A stretch of 64,000 nt of DNA from a virus: IMG/VR virus record IMGVR_UViG_3300028920_000001, positions 362,961-426,960 of that record. One strand, given 5' to 3'. Shown here piece by piece: positions 56 to 13,382 of the stretch (position 1 is its first letter; each line of letters opens with the position of its first letter). The translations under genes and the position numbers were made by a program. The notes under the pieces are model-generated. The model searched no databases. It was not told the origin of the DNA and was given only the letters and a program-made list of their open reading frames with translations.

Positions 56-3000
56 ATGACAATTGGACCTTTCACGACGTATGCCCCTCCTGGCGTCTAC
101 ACTCAGACTATTGTTGAGCCAGTCGTTATTCAGCTCCTAGGAGGGCTGAGGGTTCCGGTATTGATCGGAACGGCCCAAGAGACACTCACTCAGACCGATT
201 TTGAAATGATTCGTGGGTCCAGCAGCGTGGCTGATACCCCGATCTTCAATGAGGATGTCTCTGGTCGGTGGATTGTTAGTGGGACTAATCAAAATCCTAT
301 TATCGGTAGTCAAGATGGGACCCTTTTTAAATTTAAAGTTCGTAATTATCCGATTGTTGATGGTGATGGTCTTGGTCGTACTACATTTGATGTAACCAAG
401 GTTTCGGTTACTGTTAATGGTGAAGCTACAGTTGTTTCCCAGGTTGATGGCACTAATGGTGTTATTACCTTATTAACTGCTCCTCAGTCTACCGATACTG
501 TTCTAATCAGTTATTTCTTCCATCGGAAAGATACCCGTATCACCGATGACGTTTCTGATCAGGTGACCGAGGACGCAGCGTCCTTGATTGCTCCCAAGGC
601 TGAAACCTACGAGATTACGACTGGTACTAATGATACATTAACTGTGTATATTAATGATGCAATTGCATCAAATTCGGTTACTTTGACCGCTGGAATTCGA
701 AGTGCCACAGACATTGCTAATGATATTAATGGAGCAGGCGTTACTGGGTTGACCGCTACTGTCCATGTTGATAACCAAGGTTTGAATCATCTGCGACTGA
801 ATGCCCAAGGCAACATTTTAATCGGTAGTGGTACTGCCAATGGTATCCTTGGGTTTAATCCCGGAGATTACACTAATCGTACTCGTGTATTCCGTACGTA
901 TCAAGGTCCGATTGTAGATGGTTCTGATGGTGGTATCACTACCACTGAACCTTCCAAGGTGACGGTCTTGGTCAATGGAGTCCAGGTAGTTGCATCCGAG
1001 GTGGATGGTACCAATCGCTTGGTTACTCTGCCAACTGCTCCGGTTCCTGGTGCTATTGTCACAATTGAATATTGGTTCAATACTTGGCAGGATACGTTTG
1101 ATTATCTGCCGAATTCAAATATTGTGACGATGGGCAATGTGGGTATCTCGCCTGGTCGGCGAGATTATCTGAATGGTCCGGACTTTGTAGTCGTTAATGA
1201 AAACGACCAGTCCAAGATTCTGTGGGGCACAGCTTGGCAGGTTGTTTCTGGTGAGGTCACCGGGTCTACGCCGCTTGATTCCACACAGGTTACCGCCATG
1301 TTGGTGGATGACCGAATGTACGCGGTTGAATTAGATCGGTATGTAGATACTACTACTAACACAGTATCTTCTACACAATTTGAGCTTCCACTGATCGCCA
1401 CTACCGGTAATGGACGAGATACGCCGCTTGGTACATCTGTTTACCAGACTGTGACCAATAGCCGGATTGATCTGCCAACAAATCGTCCTGATTTGGTGAT
1501 TGTTCATACTGGCAAGACTCCTAGGGATGCCCTTTCTCGGCCTCCGGTTACGGTTCTCGAGGTTAACATCAGCAATAATACCATAGTTCTTCAGGATACG
1601 GTGCCTGCGGACTATAATGCTTATGCCACTTTCTGGTATAACCGCACAGTTGATGATAATTACACTTTGACTTGTCAAACACCTGGTGCCAGTGGGATTG
1701 GCAAGTTTACGGTTACTTCCGAGCTAAATAACGATGTTAATCTTTACAGTGTCATCTTTGGTACTAAGAATGCATTGCCTCAGACAGTGCAATGGCCAAG
1801 TGGGGTGGAGAAGATAACTGATGCTATCCATTATGGTGGACAGCCTGTGCCCGAGACAGTTACTATCACTTTTGATAGTACGCTGCTTCCAAACACTCAT
1901 GCGTCGTTCTCGAATGCTCTGCCTGAGCCATACGACCTATATACTACTTATAGTGATCAATTTGGTGGGATTCGGATTGATGGAGCTTCTGCATTCTCTG
2001 TTGATTTGAATACGGCGTTCGCTGCTCAGTTGTTAGGTAGTCCGGTTTCCGGTACTCTGCCGGCAGCTATTACGACAACTGATGAGCTCGTGCTTGAGAT
2101 TGATGGAGTTATTCTAAATATCAATGAGACGACTGTTACGGCAGCTGCAGGCACTTGGTCTACCGTTACCACCCTTGCAGGTGTGGTTACTGCCATTAAT
2201 GCTGTAATTGATGCTGACGTTCAAGTTCATCCTGATGGATCTGGCACGTTTGCTTCAACAGCGGCTAATAGTCTGGCTTCCGTAGTTACTTATGGGACTC
2301 AGAGCATTCTGAAGATTGCCGGTAGAAATGTTCAAACTTCTACCAATGGTCTAGAATCTCAGGTTAAGGTTCTGACTCCAACTACTGTTGGTCAGGTTGA
2401 TATTTCGGCCACTCTTGGTTTCACTCCGAATCAAGAATCCCTTGGTAGCTGGGATGGTTTGAATCAGCCAGCAGAGATCATTAGTTCGGTTGATGCTCCG
2501 TACTTGATTACTGCTAGTGTGGATGATTCTTTCCTGTTCAATATTGATGGACAGGATTATCAAGCTACCATTCCGTCTGGTTCGGCGGTGACTCAGGGTC
2601 AGGTGGTTGATGCTATTAATGCTGGGTATCTAGACACTGCTCCTGCTGCTGATCAGGCTACTGCGTTGGCTCAGGCTATTGTAGTGGCGAACTCATTGGC
2701 TACTAATTACGGTGGCCATCAGGCTTTGGCTACTTGGCACGTATTAGCGGATGCTGCTAATAATGTGACAGCGCCTGTGGCCACTGATTTGTCATCATTG
2801 CTTACTTTGTTAGCAGATATTAAGGCCCAGTTCAATGCCCATATCATTAATACTGGTGGTGTTTATCATAATGGCTCGACTGATACCACCAATACGATAT
2901 CAGCAGCTGATCCGACTACTCTGGAAGAAGCTATCAATTTCATCTGGGTTTTGAAGAATAATTTCAATTCGCACTTGGCGACAGCCGGAACCATCCACCT

Positions 3001-4771
3001 TTTGGCTGATGCAACCAACGTTGAGACTAATAGTAACTCTCAGTTGGTAGCAATTGCTGGTGCAGGTTTGTACGCGAATAAGATTATTCTTAGATCGCGT
3101 GTCAATACCATTTCTTCGCGAGTGGCAATTAGTACGTTGGGGACTGCCAATACGAAGCTCGGGTTTACTGCTGGTGATTCGGCCTCTGTTAATCAACCAA
3201 CTGCTTCTCGTTTAGCAGCTGCTTTGAATGCTGATGCTACTTTTGCTGCAGCGGCAGTGGCATGGCCAGTAACGACCCAGGGTCGTGGCACATTCCTCCA
3301 GATTGATTCTCTTTCTGCCGGTATCGGCTCCAGTATCACTTTCACTAGTGTGACTGGCACGGTCTTTACCACAGATACGGGAATCGGTATTACTCCTGGT
3401 GTTAGTGGTGATATCGGTGAGGCAGCCACTGCTGGTTATACAGTTTCCTCTTCGAATCCAAATGGATCAAGCGGAACTGGTGTTCCGGGCCAGACTTATA
3501 CAGATGCTCAGACCGGGCTTCGGTTCACTGTTCTTCCGGCATCTGCTGGTGATTACGCTGATGGTGGTTCGTTCACTTTGATTGTGAATTCCACCTTCAC
3601 TGCTGATGCCTCAATTCCGTCTCGAGCTATTCCGGGCTTGGAATTCTACGTTTTCAACACCCTGAATGTGGGCGTTGATTCGACAGCTATTCTGAGCACA
3701 TTTAATAAGGGTGGTTCGGAACCAGCAGTGGGTGACGTTTACTACGTCAGCTACAACTACGCTAAGTCGGATATTTCCACTGCCCTATTCCGGGATCTGA
3801 AGAAGATTCAGCAGAATTTTGGAGCTCCTACTCCCGAAAATCCGCTCAGTCTTGGAGCTCGGTTGGCTCTGTTAAATGGTTCGGTTCTGCTTGGCCTGCG
3901 TCAGGTGCTTCGAGCCCCGAATTCAGCTCAAGCTTCTCTGCAATCATACGCAGATGCTATCAATGAGCAGAAGAAACCAATTGAGGGCAGCGTGAAGCCG
4001 GATGTATTGGTTGCTCTAGCAACTGATCCAGAAATCTTCAGTTTGCTGAATCAGCATGCTGTGTTCATGTCCGCTCCGCGCCAGGAAGGTGAGCGAATTA
4101 GCATCGGTGGTGTTGCAGCTGGTACCACCCCGTTGGGTGTGCGTGCTATTGCTCAAGGTCTGCAATCTGAGTTGTTCATTCTGACTTATCCTGATACTTT
4201 CGTAATTTCGGTTACGGATCAGCAGGGTAATACGGTTGAACAGCTGATTGATGGCTCGTATGCTGCAGCGGCTTTAGCGGGTAGTGCAACCAATCCGGCT
4301 GTAGATGCCGCTACCCCATGGACTCGTCGTCAAGTTCTCGGGTTCAAGAGGTTGGGCCGCATTCTGGATCCGACTGAAGCTAATCAGGTGGCGGTCAGTG
4401 GTGTCAGCATTATTGAGCGAGTCGACACCGGGATGCGAATTCGCCACGGGTTGACGACTCGAATTGATAACGTCATTACGCGTACACCGAGCGTGACGTT
4501 GACGATTCATTACATCCAGCAGTCTACTCGCCGAACTTTGGATCCATACATTGGGCAGAAGTTCACGAGCACTCTGATTAAGTCGGTTGAGTCCAAACTG
4601 AACGGTATGTTCAGCGGACTTATCGATAAGGAAATTGTAACTGAGGTTGGTGGAATTGCGGTGACGATTGATGAAGATGATCCTACTATCATGAGGACGT
4701 CTGCCATCTACGTCCCAGTGTTCCCGCTTGAGTATATCGTTAGTACCTTCCAGGTACGAATTCGGCTCTAA
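56..4771 (+). CDS. Tail sheath protein, giant form with inserted modules
   Basis: Contractile tail sheath subunit, which polymerises around the tube and contracts at infection. The N-terminus (an APPGVY motif at about residues 10-15) and the last 320 residues or so, including the RIRHGLTTR stretch and the conserved basic C-terminus, look like the core sheath fold. T4 gp18 is about 660 aa, so some 900 residues are insertions. In them I see two beta modules with a VNG...VDGTN signature (about residues 95-155 and 280-336), three flagellin-hook-like modules ending in LGF (about 183-275, 670-800, and 820-1040), and three copies of a His/Asn-Asp helical repeat (about 868-990) lying inside the third hook-like module. 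The ATG at 56 has a good GGGAG ribosome site. The gene stands alone and is followed by a hairpin. The sheath call is firm; the insert roles (surface decoration) are inferred. Confidence 0.9.
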   Translation: MTIGPFTTYAPPGVYTQTIVEPVVIQLLGGLRVPVLIGTAQETLTQTDFEMIRGSSSVADTPIFNEDVSGRWIVSGTNQNPIIGSQDGTLFKFKVRNYPIVDGDGLGRTTFDVTKVSVTVNGEATVVSQVDGTNGVITLLTAPQSTDTVLISYFFHRKDTRITDDVSDQVTEDAASLIAPKAETYEITTGTNDTLTVYINDAIASNSVTLTAGIRSATDIANDINGAGVTGLTATVHVDNQGLNHLRLNAQGNILIGSGTANGILGFNPGDYTNRTRVFRTYQGPIVDGSDGGITTTEPSKVTVLVNGVQVVASEVDGTNRLVTLPTAPVPGAIVTIEYWFNTWQDTFDYLPNSNIVTMGNVGISPGRRDYLNGPDFVVVNENDQSKILWGTAWQVVSGEVTGSTPLDSTQVTAMLVDDRMYAVELDRYVDTTTNTVSSTQFELPLIATTGNGRDTPLGTSVYQTVTNSRIDLPTNRPDLVIVHTGKTPRDALSRPPVTVLEVNISNNTIVLQDTVPADYNAYATFWYNRTVDDNYTLTCQTPGASGIGKFTVTSELNNDVNLYSVIFGTKNALPQTVQWPSGVEKITDAIHYGGQPVPETVTITFDSTLLPNTHASFSNALPEPYDLYTTYSDQFGGIRIDGASAFSVDLNTAFAAQLLGSPVSGTLPAAITTTDELVLEIDGVILNINETTVTAAAGTWSTVTTLAGVVTAINAVIDADVQVHPDGSGTFASTAANSLASVVTYGTQSILKIAGRNVQTSTNGLESQVKVLTPTTVGQVDISATLGFTPNQESLGSWDGLNQPAEIISSVDAPYLITASVDDSFLFNIDGQDYQATIPSGSAVTQGQVVDAINAGYLDTAPAADQATALAQAIVVANSLATNYGGHQALATWHVLADAANNVTAPVATDLSSLLTLLADIKAQFNAHIINTGGVYHNGSTDTTNTISAADPTTLEEAINFIWVLKNNFNSHLATAGTIHLLADATNVETNSNSQLVAIAGAGLYANKIILRSRVNTISSRVAISTLGTANTKLGFTAGDSASVNQPTASRLAAALNADATFAAAAVAWPVTTQGRGTFLQIDSLSAGIGSSITFTSVTGTVFTTDTGIGITPGVSGDIGEAATAGYTVSSSNPNGSSGTGVPGQTYTDAQTGLRFTVLPASAGDYADGGSFTLIVNSTFTADASIPSRAIPGLEFYVFNTLNVGVDSTAILSTFNKGGSEPAVGDVYYVSYNYAKSDISTALFRDLKKIQQNFGAPTPENPLSLGARLALLNGSVLLGLRQVLRAPNSAQASLQSYADAINEQKKPIEGSVKPDVLVALATDPEIFSLLNQHAVFMSAPRQEGERISIGGVAAGTTPLGVRAIAQGLQSELFILTYPDTFVISVTDQQGNTVEQLIDGSYAAAALAGSATNPAVDAATPWTRRQVLGFKRLGRILDPTEANQVAVSGVSIIERVDTGMRIRHGLTTRIDNVITRTPSVTLTIHYIQQSTRRTLDPYIGQKFTSTLIKSVESKLNGMFSGLIDKEIVTEVGGIAVTIDEDDPTIMRTSAIYVPVFPLEYIVSTFQVRIRL
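2659..3030 (+). repeat. His/Asn-Asp helical repeats, 3 units, inside the sheath gene
   Basis: Three diverged units of about 40 codons. Each has a His, then a D-x-x-N turn, an ATDL-like helix start, a helix ending in (D/E)IK-x2-F, and a second His. The same unit recurs in the 810 aa and 1997 aa proteins encoded 48 kb and more downstream. It is a protein-level repeat; the DNA copies are not close to identical. Confidence 0.7.
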
Positions 4772-4834: not shown

Positions 4835-5362
4835 CTATTTCCCGCTATTATTCTTGGTAGGCGGAAGCAGGGGCATCGAGTCGATAGCGGCAGTCAAAGC
4901 CTTCATTGATTTACGACTCTTGTTGACCTCCCGCTTGACGTCAGCGCTGAGTTTGTTGACATCTACATTCTTATCTGTGGATTCTAAACTCGCGGCACTG
5001 GACTTAACCCGACGACGCTTTCGACGGTGAACAGTACGAGCCAAATCTTCATCATCAACTGTTGCTCGTACTCCCTCAACTTTATCAAACCAGATTTCCC
5101 GGTGATATTTTCGGCTCAGGATTCGGTTGGCACTGGCTAGAACACTGGAGAGGCGATTTTTGACTTGGTCGCTATCTTCCCCAGGAATTCGGCTCAAGCC
5201 GAAGGCGACCTTAGCGATATATCGTTTATCAAAAAAGGCGAGTGGGAGTTCATCGGCTCCGGTGTTTAAGAACTCGGCAGCTCGTTCGCCATAAGTTCCG
5301 GTGTTGTCAGTTTTATAAGATTTTAGAAATTCAGCAGGTGATCTTACAGTGCGTTTTGACAT
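4835..5362 (-). CDS. Small winged-helix-like protein, cassette copy 2, gene C
   Basis: A 175 aa basic protein and paralogue of the protein at 7164-7688. The two share a helix rich in Arg followed by a strand-turn with VEGVRATVDDED here and RGVGYRATVNDED in the partner. An RGVGYR turn after a recognition helix is what the OmpR/PhoB-type winged helix shows, so I infer a DNA-binding domain at about residues 40-115. The C-terminal third is Lys/Ser-rich and probably helical. It is the last gene of a six-gene minus-strand operon and starts directly after the J-domain gene, with a GGAGA ribosome site inside that gene's end. No known family name can be given, and the DNA target is unknown. Confidence 0.7.
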   Translation of the reverse strand: MSKRTVRSPAEFLKSYKTDNTGTYGERAAEFLNTGADELPLAFFDKRYIAKVAFGLSRIPGEDSDQVKNRLSSVLASANRILSRKYHREIWFDKVEGVRATVDDEDLARTVHRRKRRRVKSSAASLESTDKNVDVNKLSADVKREVNKSRKSMKALTAAIDSMPLLPPTKNNSGK

Positions 5363-6286
5363 TTATTTCTCCATCTGTTCGTTCCAGAGTTCTACGACCT
5401 CCCACGCTTCATTTACAGCGTGATATTGTTTAACCAGCTTGTCACTTCCATTGTTCCGATCCGGATGATACCTTGCGGCCAATCTTTTGTAAACCGATCT
5501 GGCTCTTTTAATATCGACTTTATGTCTACCTCTAGGTCTAGAGATACCGAGGGTTTCGCAGGCGTTACGGATGGCAGTAACAGTAATAGTGTCGGTGTCA
5601 GAAGGAGTGAAATCCCGCCTAAGATTTCTAATTTTCTTGAGAAGATCTTCATAGGTGACGCGGACTTCGTACTCGAAATCTTCAACTAGCCCTCTTCTTA
5701 CATCAGGTTCAATACCTTCTAATCTTACATTGACGAATGTATCTGTTAACGCCTTGATACTGGCGTAAAACATTCGGGCGTTGTCGGCTCTAAGATCTTC
5801 AGGATTGATTTCTGGAATTGAAGGTTTTGTTTTTTTAGATTTAGGTTTTTTGGGTGGTCGTCTTCGATGAATATACCCGTCTTTATTAGGATAATCTATG
5901 TATTTATCTGAAAAATATTCCTCAAGGAATTCTTTTAATTTGGTAGGATCTCCTTTGGCTTTTTTTCCAAGAACATAAGCTGTAGCCAGGGGCATTTTTC
6001 TAACCGCGATGGCATCCCATAGTGGTTTGGCTAGATCCCCCATTAATAAAATTCCGGCTCTCTTGGCAGGGCCATATGTATTTTTTGCTCCAATTTCTAC
6101 AAACCATTGACTTCTTCTTAGAGGAGTTTTATCTCCTTTGTCACGTCGGTTAATGCTATAGAAGGACCAAACTTTTCTTTCAAGTTTAGCTATTTTATAT
6201 TGATTGGTTGGGATGTCTTTTTCATACTCTTCAAGTAATTCAAGGATTAGCTCTTCTACATGCTTATCAAGGTTCTGCAGATTCAT
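5363..6286 (-). CDS. J-domain (DnaJ-like) protein, cassette copy 2, gene B
   Basis: A 307 aa protein whose last 75 residues or so form a J-domain: helix II is basic (YKRLAARYHPD), the HPD tripeptide is at residues 274-276, and a third helix follows. J-domains stimulate the ATPase of DnaK/Hsp70. Here the J-domain is C-terminal and there is no Gly/Phe region or zinc finger, so this is a specialised J-protein and not a general DnaJ. The N-terminal 190 residues match the paralogue at 7685-8548 (shared PLW...MP...Y...AK..G.P pattern, and a second shared helical block at about 170-220), separated by a Lys/Pro-rich linker. It overlaps the upstream gene by 20 bases. The client is unknown; the winged-helix neighbours are the obvious candidates (inference). 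Confidence 0.8.
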   Translation of the reverse strand: MNLQNLDKHVEELILELLEEYEKDIPTNQYKIAKLERKVWSFYSINRRDKGDKTPLRRSQWFVEIGAKNTYGPAKRAGILLMGDLAKPLWDAIAVRKMPLATAYVLGKKAKGDPTKLKEFLEEYFSDKYIDYPNKDGYIHRRRPPKKPKSKKTKPSIPEINPEDLRADNARMFYASIKALTDTFVNVRLEGIEPDVRRGLVEDFEYEVRVTYEDLLKKIRNLRRDFTPSDTDTITVTAIRNACETLGISRPRGRHKVDIKRARSVYKRLAARYHPDRNNGSDKLVKQYHAVNEAWEVVELWNEQMEK

Positions 6287-7157
6287 GTTGCTTTAGGTGC
6301 TTCACAACGGTTTCGATCTCTTTGAATAAAGAGTCCTCTTTTTTCATTTGAGAGGACATTTGATTAATAAGATTCTTACCTCGAGAGTTAAATTCCATTA
6401 CTTTTGCTAATAATTCTATAACTTGAAGTTGGGTCTTGTTGTCTACTTTCTTGTTGATTCCGGTGCAGAGTCGCATCAACCCTGCAGTTCGATCTGCACT
6501 TGCAGACGAAAGTTCTTGAATTGCGATCAATTTAGTATCATATTCTCCGAGGAATTCAAGCTCAGTTTCAATCCCTTGGTTAATTTTGGTGGCAGTGCCG
6601 GCAATTTCTTTTAATTGTGATGTTGTGCCGTTTTGAAAGCTTTCTACTTTTTCTTCGAGTTCTTCAACTTTCTTATAAAGGTTGGTGGAGATTTGAATTA
6701 AGGCAGCTACTCCTCTTATTAATTGATCTGCAGTGTTTTCTTCTTGTTCTTGGGTAACATCAGAACCTACGTTATGAGCTATGACTGGTTCTTCTTCAGG
6801 TTTTTCCTTCAGGGGATATTCATTTGGCCAAATTATGTGTTTGATATAAACAGTATCATTTGCTGCTTTAGTAAGCAATCCAATAGCTTTGTCCTTGTTT
6901 CCAATTTCGTAAGTTGTATTTCTAAGTGAACCACTTCTAATTGCCAATTCTTCTTCAATCAGGCGACTCATTAATTTGCGCTGCCAGTCTTTTGACATGG
7001 CCATCTTGCGCATTTGTGGAACTTCTAAATCTCCGTCACCTCTTGGAGAGAATAATTCTTTCATTGAAAGCGGGTCCTTTGAACTAATCAGTCTTTCTAA
7101 GACTACTCCAGCCCAAAGGACCTTCGCTTCATTCTTATTTAAGTTACGTGAAACCAC
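6267..7157 (-). CDS. Winged-helix plus coiled-coil protein, cassette copy 2, gene A
   Basis: A 296 aa protein starting at GTG. Residues about 30-95 form a small helix-turn-helix-like domain with the signature SKDWQ...M..L, shared with the larger paralogue at 8545-9636 (SKDWQKGCMYHL). After an acidic linker (about residues 115-140), the rest is a long coiled-coil-forming region with heptad-like Leu/Ile spacing. It follows gene C of copy 1 by six bases and overlaps gene B of copy 2 by 20 bases, so the six genes are probably one transcript. Relative to its paralogue it lacks the second winged-helix copy and the C-terminal domain. DNA binding is inferred from the fold pattern only. Confidence 0.7.
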   Translation of the reverse strand: MVSRNLNKNEAKVLWAGVVLERLISSKDPLSMKELFSPRGDGDLEVPQMRKMAMSKDWQRKLMSRLIEEELAIRSGSLRNTTYEIGNKDKAIGLLTKAANDTVYIKHIIWPNEYPLKEKPEEEPVIAHNVGSDVTQEQEENTADQLIRGVAALIQISTNLYKKVEELEEKVESFQNGTTSQLKEIAGTATKINQGIETELEFLGEYDTKLIAIQELSSASADRTAGLMRLCTGINKKVDNKTQLQVIELLAKVMEFNSRGKNLINQMSSQMKKEDSLFKEIETVVKHLKQHESAEP

Positions 7158-7163
7158 GTTCTA

Positions 7164-7688
7164 TTATTCTTTTTCTTCCTGGACTGGAGGCAACAGTTTC
7201 TGAATTCGATCATCAGAAATCAGGTTACTGATTTTCTTGACATTACGGACGAAGCTACGAAGTTTACGACCTTCAGGATTTGAGGTTGAAATCTTACGGG
7301 CATCGATCATGCCGAGGCTATTATCAACACTAACCTTGGCTGAGGCTAATCGCTTAGTACGGTCAGCTAAATCAAATCGAGCTTTATCTTCATCATTGAC
7401 AGTGGCACGGTAGCCAACTCCGCGTTGGCAGATATACCCACGTTGATATTCTTTGCGTAGAAGATCACGGGCTCGAGTCATACATGCCCGTACGCTATCT
7501 GCTTCCTTGGAAGTAGCACGTGGTGTATGATTATAACCATTAATGGCTTTTACGATTTCCTGTGCCGGGAAATACTGATACCGCAAATTCTTAGCGGCCC
7601 AGTCGAGGAAATGAGCAACACGTTGAGTTAGGCTCATCCCAGGAAGTGACTGGTAATCCGCTACTGCCGCCTTTCGTTTCTTGGTCAT
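7164..7688 (-). CDS. Small winged-helix protein, cassette copy 1, gene C
   Basis: A 174 aa protein. Residues about 20-110 read as a winged helix: helices, then a basic recognition helix (CMTRARDLLRKEY) and the strand-turn RGVGYRATV, which resembles the end of the OmpR/PhoB effector domain. No receiver domain is present. The C-terminus is basic and helical. It has the best ribosome site of the operon (AAGGAG), placed inside the end of the J-domain gene, which it overlaps by four bases. It is a paralogue of the protein at 4835-5362. A DNA-binding regulator or initiator-like protein is inferred; no family is recognised with certainty. Confidence 0.7.
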   Translation of the reverse strand: MTKKRKAAVADYQSLPGMSLTQRVAHFLDWAAKNLRYQYFPAQEIVKAINGYNHTPRATSKEADSVRACMTRARDLLRKEYQRGYICQRGVGYRATVNDEDKARFDLADRTKRLASAKVSVDNSLGMIDARKISTSNPEGRKLRSFVRNVKKISNLISDDRIQKLLPPVQEEKE

Positions 7689-8548
7689 AGCTTCTCCTTA
7701 TTCAAGGAATCATTGTATTCCTTGAGAATTTCGTGTGCTCCTACTGCTTCTTCAAACAAATCCCTAGTCTCTTCATTGCCACCGTGAGCATCAGGATGAT
7801 ACAACCTGGTGAGTCTTTTCATTTGTTTAGTAGCTTGTTTTAGATCTATTGGTTGATTAATTGGAGGCGAATCAATTTGTAGGATTTTACAAGCGCGAAT
7901 CAATTTTTTTCGATCTATTGTAGTTCCGAATTTAATTTTGCTTTTTGCGGCTCGGGCAGCTCTGGATTGCCAACCCATGATTAATGTTTTCAAATCAATT
8001 TCAAATTCTCTTAGAAGATTATCTTTTTCAATTTCAAGTAAATCTCCGAGTTTTCCTTCAAGATGATCAGTGATCATCATTCTGATTTGTGCCCAGAATG
8101 GTTTATCTCCGTTTTCTCGAACAATTAAACCAATCCCAGTTTCAGTTTTTCTTTTAATGATTGGAAATTTTTTCTTAATTTGTTTTCCACTGGGGAGTCG
8201 TGCTTCATAGGATTTATTTTCATATTTATTGAATTCAATATTTAGTGCTTTTTCAATTGGTTCTCCTCGTCTTTTAGCTGTAGTGATTATTCGATAAATA
8301 GTATGAAAAGGCATTCCATTTTCAAGTCTTTCCCAAAGAGGACTTGATAATCTAGGTGGTAACTTATAAATTGACCGTCGAGTTCGATATTGAATATCAG
8401 TGATTCCGAGAGTATGAACGACAGTTTTGGCTGCTCTTTTACTGTTTTGGATACCTTTATAATGTTTCCAAAGGGTATACTCGAATTCAGCTTTCTCCTC
8501 TTGGGTGGAAAGTTTCTGATATTCTTCCACTAATTGACTCGTGTTCAT
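7685..8548 (-). CDS. J-domain (DnaJ-like) protein, cassette copy 1, gene B
   Basis: A 287 aa protein with a C-terminal J-domain: helix II KRLTRLYHPD, HPD at residues 251-253, then a helix ending in KEYNDSLNKEKL. The N-terminal domain aligns with the paralogue at 5363-6286 (PLWERL...MPFHTIY...AKRRGEP) and is not a known DnaJ substrate-binding region. It overlaps gene A by four bases and gene C by four bases, so the three products are probably made in step. The expected role is to recruit host DnaK to a specific partner; that partner is unknown. The gene is clearly AT-rich compared with the neighbouring sheath gene. Confidence 0.8.
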   Translation of the reverse strand: MNTSQLVEEYQKLSTQEEKAEFEYTLWKHYKGIQNSKRAAKTVVHTLGITDIQYRTRRSIYKLPPRLSSPLWERLENGMPFHTIYRIITTAKRRGEPIEKALNIEFNKYENKSYEARLPSGKQIKKKFPIIKRKTETGIGLIVRENGDKPFWAQIRMMITDHLEGKLGDLLEIEKDNLLREFEIDLKTLIMGWQSRAARAAKSKIKFGTTIDRKKLIRACKILQIDSPPINQPIDLKQATKQMKRLTRLYHPDAHGGNEETRDLFEEAVGAHEILKEYNDSLNKEKL

Positions 8549-9636
8549 TTCTTGAAAATGCGGGTTTGGACTTTACGGTTAAGTTCAGAATCAAAAATAA
8601 CTGCTTTAGTACGTTTAAATCCGAATTCTCTTAAAATATTAGCGATTTCTTTAGCTTCTTGTCCTTTTGGATTTATTTGAAGTTCCAGATAATTGCAAAT
8701 ATCTTTTATACTTACAGCAGATAAATTTTGAACAAAATCAGCAATATTTTTCCTCAATTCAATTTGTTTCAAATTTGGTTGGGGATAAACTGTATGAACA
8801 TGAGTGTCATGTTTTTGACTAATTTTTCTGAGTTCAGTTTCAATTGCTTCTAATCTGGTTGAATGATACTCAAGAATTTGTAAATATTGAACTAGCTTTT
8901 CAAGAATTACTAATCCAACATTAGTTTGATCAGATTCTTTTAATTTTGGTTCTTGCTTTGATTCAAGAGCTACGGAATGTTTAAGTTGCTTGACATTTCT
9001 TTTTAGAAATCCAGGTGCAGTTACTCTTTGTGTGTATCGATACCATTTAGGGAAAAGTAATTCAACAATTTTTTCGTTATCTGGTTGAATGACGGCTTTA
9101 CCAACTCGAGCTTTATACTCAACCCATCTGGTCCAGCCTTTAACTGAACAAAATCCAGTAGCGACAAGCCGTTTCATAAAAGCTGATTGCCAACTTGCTG
9201 TTTCTTGAAATAAATCATCCCTTCTAATTGGTTTTCCTTTAGCAAGTTTTCTTACTACTTTTGTTGCGTCAATAAACTGAGTATGTTGCTCATCAGTTAG
9301 GCGTTGGAAAATACTGAGTGCATAAATATTTTCAAAATTGCTATCTGCAATGGCGGTTCCGCAAATAGCAACCTCTTGTGTAAGAGGATAATGGGATATA
9401 ATTTGACGAATAGCTTGTTTTTCTTTAATTACATATGTATCGGCATTACGTTCAATAAGCCCCTTTCCGGCTAAATGATACATACAGCCCTTTTGCCAAT
9501 CTTTAGAGGCTGTCTTTTTTCTATTACCGATTCCTATAAAGATATCCTCGATGGTAACTGGTGCGTCAGTTTTAAGCATTTCTTTTAAGGCATTACGGAT
9601 AATCTTCTCAAGGGCAGAGAGGGTTTTTTGATCCAT
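8545..9636 (-). CDS. Double winged-helix protein, cassette copy 1, gene A
   Basis: First gene of the six-gene operon. I start it at the ATG at 9636 (363 aa); an in-frame TTG at 9660 would add eight residues. Two diverged copies of the same small helical domain are visible: IEDIFIGIG...SKDWQ...M..L near residues 30-70, and RRDDLF...SWQ...FMKRL near 145-175. A linker and short coiled coil follow, then a C-terminal region (about residues 290-363) with a LREFGFKR motif, typical of winged helices at the end of some phage and plasmid helicases. It is a paralogue of the shorter protein at 6267-7157, and is strongly AT-rich. Function is unknown; DNA binding is inferred. Confidence 0.7.
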   Translation of the reverse strand: MDQKTLSALEKIIRNALKEMLKTDAPVTIEDIFIGIGNRKKTASKDWQKGCMYHLAGKGLIERNADTYVIKEKQAIRQIISHYPLTQEVAICGTAIADSNFENIYALSIFQRLTDEQHTQFIDATKVVRKLAKGKPIRRDDLFQETASWQSAFMKRLVATGFCSVKGWTRWVEYKARVGKAVIQPDNEKIVELLFPKWYRYTQRVTAPGFLKRNVKQLKHSVALESKQEPKLKESDQTNVGLVILEKLVQYLQILEYHSTRLEAIETELRKISQKHDTHVHTVYPQPNLKQIELRKNIADFVQNLSAVSIKDICNYLELQINPKGQEAKEIANILREFGFKRTKAVIFDSELNRKVQTRIFKK

Positions 9637-9651
9637 AACTGAACTTACAAG

Positions 9652-9664
9652 TTGATTCAATCAA
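9652..9664. promoter_or_regulatory. Palindrome in divergent promoter region, candidate operator
   Basis: A perfect inverted repeat, TTGATT-C-AATCAA, sits in the gap of about 35 bp between the divergent operons starting at 9636 (minus) and 9671 (plus). Its position suits an operator read in both directions, possibly bound by the winged-helix proteins made by the minus operon. No convincing -35/-10 pair can be named. Confidence 0.3.
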
Positions 9665-11445: not shown

Positions 11446-11862
11446 TTAGTTTAATTTATCATGGACTAATTGATTTAATTTTTTAACAAATTCACTCCTG
11501 CCAGATTTGGAATCAAATCTGTTTGTTACTTCGATTTTGGCTCTAGGCGCTTTTAAAGCAATTCTCATATCTTCATTTTGGTCTATCCACACTCTTAGTC
11601 GGCACGGATAGGTCTCGCGGCCGATTTTGATGTTTCCGTGGGCATAATAGATATGGTTTCCGGCTTGGGTTTCTTCAAGGTCCAGACTTGGTAATTTTAA
11701 GAGGATACTCTTAAGATGGTCGGTCATCTGGAGCCTATAGAACTTTGAAATCACTTTCTTTTCCATATCCTTATATACCAAAAATTGGAGTCGATTTTCG
11801 GGCACTAATAAACCTTCTTTGATTAGGATACGATATGGGACTATTACGTACAGCCGGTTCAT
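11446..11862 (-). CDS. Hypothetical protein, 138 aa
   Basis: A basic alpha/beta protein with no recognised family. Its 5' end overlaps the 5' end of the divergent AAA+ ATPase gene by 28 bases if the first ATG is used. A GAGG lies immediately before this ATG, too close for an ideal ribosome site, so the true start is uncertain. With the collagen-like gene it forms a two-gene minus-strand unit. Confidence 0.55.
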   Translation of the reverse strand: MNRLYVIVPYRILIKEGLLVPENRLQFLVYKDMEKKVISKFYRLQMTDHLKSILLKLPSLDLEETQAGNHIYYAHGNIKIGRETYPCRLRVWIDQNEDMRIALKAPRAKIEVTNRFDSKSGRSEFVKKLNQLVHDKLN

Positions 11863-13382
11863 ACCTCAGCGCACTTTCCACAGGAGAGTACGAAATCCCT
11901 AATCCTCTGGCAGCTGCGGTCAATTATGCCATTGATTCATATTTTGCTAAGAGAGATGAACGGGCTCGGATAGCTGAAGCTAATCGTAAAGAAATGCCAA
12001 TGGACCTTGATGTATATCTCAAGGAAGTTTGGCTTGGATGTGAAATTCATAAGGCTATCAATCTTTCAGGTAGTTATCCGGCATATGCTAAAGCTGTTAA
12101 TGCTTGGGCATTCACTCGAATGTTTACTGCGTATGCTGGAGCGAATGCTTCGTATGAGATAGTTCCGGTTCTAGATCAATCTGAATATAAAGATTATTTG
12201 AAGAGTAACCGAGAATATAGAACTCAATATGAACCTATAAATATTAGTTTGACCCAAGCTGTCACTCTTCCGGTATACGGGACTTTCTTCGTTAAGAATC
12301 GAAGGACTGGAGCCCATCTAATAATTGCGTTTGACTTCTGTTACTATGGAATGGGATGCAGCGTTAGTGTGATGGCTCATTCTCACGGCCAGCATGAAGC
12401 TGAAGCCTTCCTGGCCGATTTGACTGGTTCAATTCAGGCCAATAACATTTATTTCAAGAGTTGCCTCTCATTCAATAGAGGATACCTTGATTTTCATTAT
12501 GTAATTCCAACTACTTGGCAACAGGTAATTTTAAAGGATAGTCTGAGAACGCAAATTCAGAAGAATTCTGTTGGAGTTCTTGATCATATTTCTGATTTAT
12601 CATCTATTGGAATGAGTGCTAATCAAAGTATGCTTTTGATTTCGCCGCCCGGAATGGCTAAGACTACTATGTTCCGGGCTACTTCCAATGAGATTAATGA
12701 GCAAGCTACCCGAATTTGGTGTACTGGTAAGTCTATTTCATATCCGGAACATGTTACTGCGTTGTTTGAAGCAGCTCGAGATTTAAGTCCGTCAGTTATA
12801 TTTATTGAAGATATGGACCTATTTGGTGGTGATCGTAGCACCTTAGGTCGAGATAGTAGTGTTTTGAATGAATTTTTAGCTCAACTTGATGGGACTCAAT
12901 CTAATGCGGGCGTCGTCATTATGGCATCCACTAATGATCTTGACTCTATGGACGAGGCTTTGATCAATCGTCCCGGTCGATTTGGGGTTAAGATTGAAAT
13001 ACCATATCCGGATGCTGAGGATCGGAAGAAAATGCTGGTTTCCTTCTTTAAGGCGTACCATGCAAGGCCGGCTCCTTCAGTTAGCGATGAAGGCTGGGAT
13101 AATATTGTTAAATTAACTGCTGGTTTTACTGGAGATTATATTAGGGAAGTAGCCAAGACAGCGGTAATTAAGGCTGTGGCTGAGGGCCGATGTTTAAGTG
13201 GTCAAGTTAGTTTTACAATGGACGATTTGACTGCAGCTGGGGAACAAGTTTTACAGAATTACCGGATCGGCAAGAGAGCCAAGAGACATCACACTATCTC
13301 TATTGAAGATGGTGGGGAACCCGTAGAGGCAGTAATAGCTTCAGAAGGTCCGAAGGAACCTTCTATGAAGTTAGTATCATAG
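11835..13382 (+). CDS. AAA+ ATPase (Bcs1/CDC48-type ATPase domain)
   Basis: A 515 aa protein with about 240 N-terminal residues of unknown fold followed by a classic AAA domain. Visible motifs: Walker A SPPGMAKTT (residues 270-278), Walker B VIFIEDMD (321-328, Glu325-Asp326 in the ED order also seen in Bcs1-like proteins), sensor 1 Asn367 in MASTND, and arginine-finger motif NRPGRFG (378-384). The Walker A is unusual, with Ser for the first Gly and Ala275 for the Gly before Lys276. The likely role is ATP-driven remodelling or unfolding of a protein complex; the substrate is unknown. No peptidase domain is fused. A TAGGATA ribosome site precedes the ATG. Confidence 0.85.
   Translation: MGLLRTAGSYLSALSTGEYEIPNPLAAAVNYAIDSYFAKRDERARIAEANRKEMPMDLDVYLKEVWLGCEIHKAINLSGSYPAYAKAVNAWAFTRMFTAYAGANASYEIVPVLDQSEYKDYLKSNREYRTQYEPINISLTQAVTLPVYGTFFVKNRRTGAHLIIAFDFCYYGMGCSVSVMAHSHGQHEAEAFLADLTGSIQANNIYFKSCLSFNRGYLDFHYVIPTTWQQVILKDSLRTQIQKNSVGVLDHISDLSSIGMSANQSMLLISPPGMAKTTMFRATSNEINEQATRIWCTGKSISYPEHVTALFEAARDLSPSVIFIEDMDLFGGDRSTLGRDSSVLNEFLAQLDGTQSNAGVVIMASTNDLDSMDEALINRPGRFGVKIEIPYPDAEDRKKMLVSFFKAYHARPAPSVSDEGWDNIVKLTAGFTGDYIREVAKTAVIKAVAEGRCLSGQVSFTMDDLTAAGEQVLQNYRIGKRAKRHHTISIEDGGEPVEAVIASEGPKEPSMKLVS

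Follow-up and report, generated by a model that had tools for sequence, protein, structure and literature searches.

A three-gene cassette, A-B-C, that joins a J-domain protein to proteins of DNA-binding type is present in two divergent copies in the DNA analyzed here, a window of 64,000 nucleotides (nt) covering positions 362961-426960, the end, of the 427 kb virus record IMGVR_UViG_3300028920_000001 (G000). Single A-B-C sets are found in four other uncultured phages. We tentatively interpret the cassette, with slightly less than even confidence, as a mobile accessory element of jumbo phages whose three products would form a complex on DNA and recruit host DnaK to remodel proteins there. The two copies consist of six open reading frames, all on the minus strand and spanning 4835-9636 of the window:

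8545-9636, minus strand: gene A of copy 1, with two LF-W domains (described below), a coiled-coil segment and a C-terminal domain
7685-8548, minus strand: gene B of copy 1, with an N-terminal helical domain (candidate ParB/KorB-like fold), a linker, a helical hairpin and a C-terminal J-domain
7164-7688, minus strand: gene C of copy 1, with a predicted winged helix followed by a basic helical tail
6267-7157, minus strand: gene A' of copy 2, with a GTG start, a single LF-W domain and a long C-terminal region
5363-6286, minus strand: gene B' of copy 2, with a Pfam DnaJ match and BLASTP homology to B
4835-5362, minus strand: gene C' of copy 2, homologous to C, with RATVDDED at 5045-5068

The genes are present where an earlier note on this DNA had placed them as two A-B-C sets, and the motifs by which it had paired the copies, RATV(N/D)DED in C and C' and SKDWQ in A and A', are located as it described. 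In copy 1, A overlaps B by 4 nt and B overlaps C by 4 nt; a gap of 6 nt separates C from A'. In copy 2, A' and B' overlap by 20 nt and B' abuts C'. Two starts are available for gene A, TTG at 9660 or ATG at 9636, the latter being the one chosen in the earlier note. The GC content of A and B is 0.34-0.40 in both copies compared with 0.46-0.48 for C, the value for C being close to that of the nearby tail sheath gene (0.47); the contrast may reflect different expression or a different history. The number of sites found in a promoter scan was not above chance.

The J-domain of B is secure, in that three lines of evidence (Pfam, a profile comparison with solved structures and the predicted fold) concur that the protein ends in a genuine J-domain, as the earlier note had described for B and B'. 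The J-domains are located as follows:

7691-7912, minus strand: J-domain of B, residues 213-286, with the HPD codons at 7790-7798; Pfam DnaJ E 5e-5
5381-5593, minus strand: J-domain of B', with the HPD codons at 5459-5467; Pfam DnaJ E 6e-8, above the gathering cut-off

The Pfam score of B itself is 23.7 bits, under the cut-off of 27.8, and a DnaJ match was obtained for all six of the B members scanned. A profile of the B family matched the structures of the E. coli DnaJ J-domain at E 1.8e-9, the AlphaFold2 model of B matched J-domains with a Foldseek probability of 1.0, including the DnaJ-DnaK complex 5nro, and HPD is invariant in 7/7 B sequences. B and B' are 22% identical across nearly their full length (BLASTP E 4e-10). 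The model of B (mean predicted local distance difference test score, pLDDT, of 76) consists of an N-terminal helical bundle, a disordered linker, a helical hairpin and the J-domain, with the bundle and the J-domain at approximately 90. B resembles a class C Hsp40 in its J-domain helices and HPD loop; no zinc finger or class A/B DnaJ C-terminal domain was found in the B proteins, the J-domain being the only Pfam match above noise.

No DnaK is encoded in the cassette-bearing records searched (G000, G004, G007 and G009), and therefore the J-domain most likely uses the DnaK of the host. G000 also encodes a full DnaJ of 361 amino acids (L008, at approximately 38.6 kb) and a small J-protein of 106 amino acids (L010, at approximately 47.2 kb), and matches resembling the small J-protein occur in G001 and G002 as well. 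A further J-like match in G000 (L009, at 61.9 kb) was rejected as chance, being situated inside what by eye is a VanW-like reading frame and having no HPD.

In the C proteins, basic helices are predicted to follow a winged helix of the OmpR type. Two features of C were located:

7404-7631, minus strand: winged helix of C, three helices and a beta hairpin, with pLDDT mostly 87-95
7386-7409, minus strand: RATVNDED motif of C

In the AlphaFold2 model of C (mean pLDDT 81), the winged helix is made up of helices at residues 20-34, 42-50 and 61-81 and strands at residues 85-88 and 92-95; beyond it the chain continues in long helices. The closest structures are effector domains of the OmpR type, YycF (6cqg, probability 0.98, E 0.07) and SaeR (probability 0.82). 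The winged helix claimed earlier for C is thus borne out by the predicted model and its structural match, and the proposed homology of C and C' is supported by 26% identity over 150 amino acids (BLASTP E 2e-10). Neither a Pfam scan nor the model indicated a receiver domain within the 174 residues of C, which is therefore not a response regulator. The isoelectric point is approximately 10 in all six C proteins.

The A proteins are characterized by LF-W, which is a previously undescribed domain present in one to three copies per protein. Those in the window, with scores from leave-one-protein-out hidden Markov models (HMMs), each based on the domains of every A protein except the one scored, are:

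9400-9603, minus strand: LF-W domain 1 of A (SKDWQ), 25.8 bits compared with 9.1 for the best of 500 shuffles
9106-9264, minus strand: LF-W domain 2 of A (ASWQ), 17.9 bits (best shuffle 9.1)
6894-7115, minus strand: LF-W domain of A' (SKDWQ), 28.6 bits compared with 7.8 for the best of 500 shuffles

Every held-out A protein was recovered by this procedure; the weakest single repeat, domain 1 of the G007 protein, did not score above shuffles. The A protein of G009 was recovered at E 4e-5 by a profile built without it, and the significant matches of the LF-W profile were to cassette A genes only. A and A' have one domain in common, and their BLASTP similarity (E 6e-4) is limited to approximately 70 amino acids in the N-terminal region; together with the leave-one-out HMMs, this confirms for one LF-W domain the homology that had been claimed for A and A'. 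Based on a helix-helix-hairpin pattern in the sequence and a weak match to Mcm4, the fold of LF-W is probably that of a winged helix. Profile comparisons of the A domain with C and with B revealed no relation. We also considered a coiled-coil tail as an element common to all A proteins, and rejected it: the tail held up in A of copy 1 and in the A proteins of G004 and G009, did not exceed shuffles in G007, and failed for A' and G008. The C-terminal region of A' has a coiled-coil look when judged by eye.

The N-terminal half of B may, according to its predicted structure, carry a DNA-binding fold of the ParB/KorB kind. The domain is located at:

8219-8542, minus strand: N-terminal helical domain of B, residues 3-110, with a pLDDT of approximately 90 over most of its length

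Foldseek matched this domain to the operator-binding domain of KorB (1r71, probability 0.84, template modeling score 0.56 by target), to Spo0J and Noc, and to a viral model named Spo0J (probability 0.38). Alignments made with hhalign against PifC and SopB of the F plasmid were no better than reversed controls, a result that neither favors nor rules out kinship with ParB. Five of the six B proteins are basic. The match to KorB, Spo0J and Noc raises the question of a DNA partition or centromere-like system with a ParB-like B, but no ParA-type ATPase was found in the G000 record with the AAA_31 model, no CTPase domain is seen in B and no site repeats were found; given the missing ParA match and site repeats, we consider a partition role very improbable.

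The three genes behave as a unit. Their order is kept in all phages that bear them, and in the records examined A, B and C occur as a set or are absent. The full-length B of G004 came from a profile search among phages with the tail sheath gene in common, and A and C adjoin it; G007 and G008 were found with a wider C profile (in this search locus L036 matched L035 where read), and G009 with a further C profile. The genes overlap by 8 and 4 nt in G007 and by 4 and 44 nt in G009, where the cassette is compact with its three genes in approximately 2 kb; in G004 an overlap of 17 nt is followed by a gap of 6 nt, and in G008 B and C overlap by 35 nt. Between phages, identity is 20-32% for B and 25-40% for C. 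The A-B-C layout that the earlier note had proposed as a unit is thus found again in four other phages. Neither C, nor an LF-W domain, nor a full-length B was found with our profiles in two large related phages, LR745208 (485 kb) and Tunturi_5 (308 kb); absences from several other records carry less weight because those records are fragments. A tblastn search of 50,697 annotated phages with A, B, B', C' and the B and C of G007 as queries returned nothing beyond J-domains, and C profiles run twice against GTDB genomes gave no matches within the sensitivity of those scans.

The genomic location of the cassette supports its classification as accessory. In G000, G007 and G008 it lies in or next to an interval containing the sheath gene, an AAA+ ATPase gene and the 13460 gene, at three different positions and in two orientations. 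The cassette of G004 is approximately 130 kb from the sheath gene, that of G009 adjoins the terminase and RNase HII genes, and other sheath-bearing phages have different cargo at the site, including HNH genes. Because its position varies and other cargo can occupy the site, we consider the cassette accessory cargo at a favored site rather than part of the core genome. A potential concern is that this location instead reflects a role in virion assembly, with B enlisting host DnaK in the folding or assembly of the very large sheath and neighboring structural proteins, and A and C serving as client adaptors or late-region regulators. The cassette starts within approximately 5 kb of the sheath gene in G000, G007 and G008, near the conserved AAA+ ATPase, and a published proposal has the J-domain proteins of jumbo phages recruiting host Hsp70 to help in folding and assembly (PMC7824862). 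However, relatives with the same sheath have other cargo, such as HNH genes, in place of the cassette at the site, the G004 and G009 cassettes are situated elsewhere, that of G000 is oriented opposite to the sheath gene, and the DNA-binding-like domains would be left unexplained. We consider a virion-assembly role unlikely, though worth keeping in view.

We also examined the history of the two copies and the selection acting on them. In a tree of B and C, copy 2 grouped with the G008 cassette (ultrafast bootstrap 97) and not with copy 1. The approximately unbiased (AU) test marginally rejected the copies as sisters for concatenated B and C (p = 0.039); it did not do so for the single genes (0.23 for B and 0.12 for C). 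Tree and AU test together therefore suggest that the split between copy 1 and copy 2 is probably older than this phage, arising from an old duplication or from the arrival of a second cassette, and they weaken the case for a recent tandem duplication. Of the earlier proposal that the cassette was duplicated and then diverged, the part that stands is the presence of two homologous copies; the grouping of copy 2 with G008 argues against duplication within this phage. Copy 2 is also present at the equivalent place beside the sheath gene in L005, a near relative. L005 ends before A', so that the comparison covers C' and part of B'. C' is 94% identical between the two, with a ratio of nonsynonymous to synonymous substitution rates (dN/dS) of 0.04, and the C-terminal 143 residues of B' are 88% identical with a dN/dS of 0.08; C' and this part of B' are under purifying selection. 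The 63 preceding residues of B' are 43% identical, with a dN/dS of 0.52 and a similar synonymous rate (dS). Because this fast-changing stretch includes the linker, its rate may reflect either relaxed constraint or altered specificity.

A fast-changing region ahead of a conserved J-domain part would also be compatible with a DnaK hijack or poison, in which the J-domain diverts host DnaK, for example to change heat-shock regulation or disarm a chaperone-dependent defense, while A and C regulate the operon. Such a role has a precedent in Rki of phage RB43, a phage J-protein that, in the cited part of its description, acts on host DnaK (PMC3486835), and it would be in keeping with an accessory cassette placed at a site for cargo. 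The tblastn matches for B in the annotated phages did not include RB43, whose presence in that collection was not checked. A hijack leaves unexplained both why three DNA-binding-like proteins are constantly linked and why C is the best conserved of them, and we regard it as quite unlikely.

We return to a DNA-bound complex that recruits DnaK, a reading based on the constant linkage of a J-domain with proteins of DNA-binding type, the basic character of C and of most B proteins, and the accessory status of the cassette. Rki of phage RB43, which binds the DnaK of its host, offers a precedent (PMC3486835). A, with its one to three LF-W domains, B and C, encoded by mostly overlapping genes, would most likely assemble together on DNA. 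B would contribute a ParB/KorB-like DNA-binding domain, a flexible linker and the C-terminal J-domain, which would recruit host DnaK and trigger its ATPase beside the bound proteins. A nucleoprotein complex, composed of the cassette's own proteins or of a host or phage protein that they recognize, would then be remodeled or dismantled. The two divergent versions side by side in this phage presumably have different targets. What we infer from these features is that the proteins bind DNA, form a complex and recruit DnaK, as well as their target and purpose. A more specific version, in which B with its own ParB/KorB-like domain and two winged-helix proteins deliver host DnaK to specific DNA sites so that the proteins bound there are taken apart or remodeled, the stacked subtypes differing in their targets, is possible but rather doubtful. 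The earlier description of a chaperone-coupled DNA-binding system holds up to the extent that a genuine J-domain accompanies DNA-binding-like proteins.

Several observations weigh against such a complex. Foldseek E values for the B N-terminal domain against ParB and KorB are at least 1, indicating a likeness of fold only, and tests of kinship with hhalign, Pfam and PDB sequences found nothing; because no sequence method backs it, we treat this likeness as a lead. The matches of the LF-W profile to known structures are weak (Mcm4 C-terminal region, E 0.028), four of the five A proteins scored are acidic, and A lies 2.3 kb upstream of B in G008. Winged helices may act as protein-protein modules. 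The cassettes yielded no operator or repeat array: those of the window contain no repeats of at least 16 nt, and the other cassettes searched have no site-like arrays.

The combination of winged-helix and J-domain proteins had also suggested a replication initiator, or the remodeling of one, as in the P1 RepA-DnaJ-DnaK and lambda O-P-DnaB systems; polyomavirus T antigens likewise place J-domains beside DNA-binding domains. The cassette is accessory, however, being missing from two large related phages and present as two divergent copies here, and a search of four cassette regions and the DNA beside them found no iterons. This distribution and the lack of iterons disfavor an initiator, which we consider improbable.

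Other genes near the cassettes were as follows:

56-4771, plus strand: very large tail sheath-like protein of 1571 amino acids, with relatives that include LR745208, Tunturi_5 (host Tunturiibacter) and Bacillus phage G
10796-11404, minus strand: collagen-like repeat protein matching phage tail-fiber families, in the stretch that separates the cassette from the AAA+ gene
11835-13379, plus strand: AAA+ ATPase of the VCP/Cdc48 type (best solved relatives VCP-like ATPases, E 3e-38), kept at 46-52% near the sheath gene in five related phage loci
14226-15779, minus strand: protein of 517 amino acids with HNH endonuclease regions and a Mom-like DNA-modification (acetyltransferase) domain (Pfam Mom E 3e-28)
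L055, 13897-16464: apparent RNA polymerase beta-prime-like protein of G009, near the terminase gene and the cassette (translation read by eye)

These data suggest that a virus may direct a host chaperone toward targets on DNA in a manner not described before, by means of a J-domain tied by an operon, and perhaps within one polypeptide, to DNA-binding-type proteins as mobile cargo. If this is correct, bacterial viruses have a dedicated means of directing the host chaperone to nucleoprotein complexes, a logic otherwise known from plasmid P1, phage lambda and polyomaviruses; the compact version in G009 makes it directly testable. We know of no self-contained cassette of this kind, and to our knowledge the phage J-proteins described so far act on host Hsp70 with no known DNA-directed partner. 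In the literature searched, we found no account of winged-helix genes linked to a gene for a J-domain.

In P1 RepA and lambda O-P-DnaB, DnaJ and DnaK remodel a DNA-bound complex, but these systems borrow host DnaJ, whereas the cassette encodes its own J-domain and has no iterons that we found. The polyomavirus large T antigen joins a viral J-domain to DNA-binding modules and uses Hsp70 on nucleoprotein complexes; it is one polypeptide with a helicase, whereas the cassette has three genes, no helicase and a C-terminal J-domain. CbpA (curved DNA-binding protein A) is a J-protein that binds DNA, with an N-terminal J-domain and DnaJ-type C-terminal domains, whereas in B the N-terminal domain is unrelated and the partners are constant. 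The DNA-binding domains of KorB, ParB and Noc may resemble the N-terminal domain of B in fold (Foldseek probability up to 0.84), but B has no detectable sequence similarity to them, no CTPase domain that could be seen and no ParA partner by the AAA_31 model. Moraphages carry both DnaJ and DnaK, according to the cited part of a report on them (PMC12619734). The DnaJ-domain proteins of other jumbo phages are, like B, J-proteins of large phages proposed to recruit Hsp70, and in the cited parts of these accounts they are not linked to DNA-binding-like partners (PMC7824862, PMC12619734); G000 has its separate DnaJ and small J-protein in addition to B. Rki of RB43 is, like B, a phage-encoded J-protein, one that acts on host DnaK and not as a general cochaperone; the cited part of its description mentions no operon with DNA-binding-like proteins (PMC3486835), whereas B has such partners.

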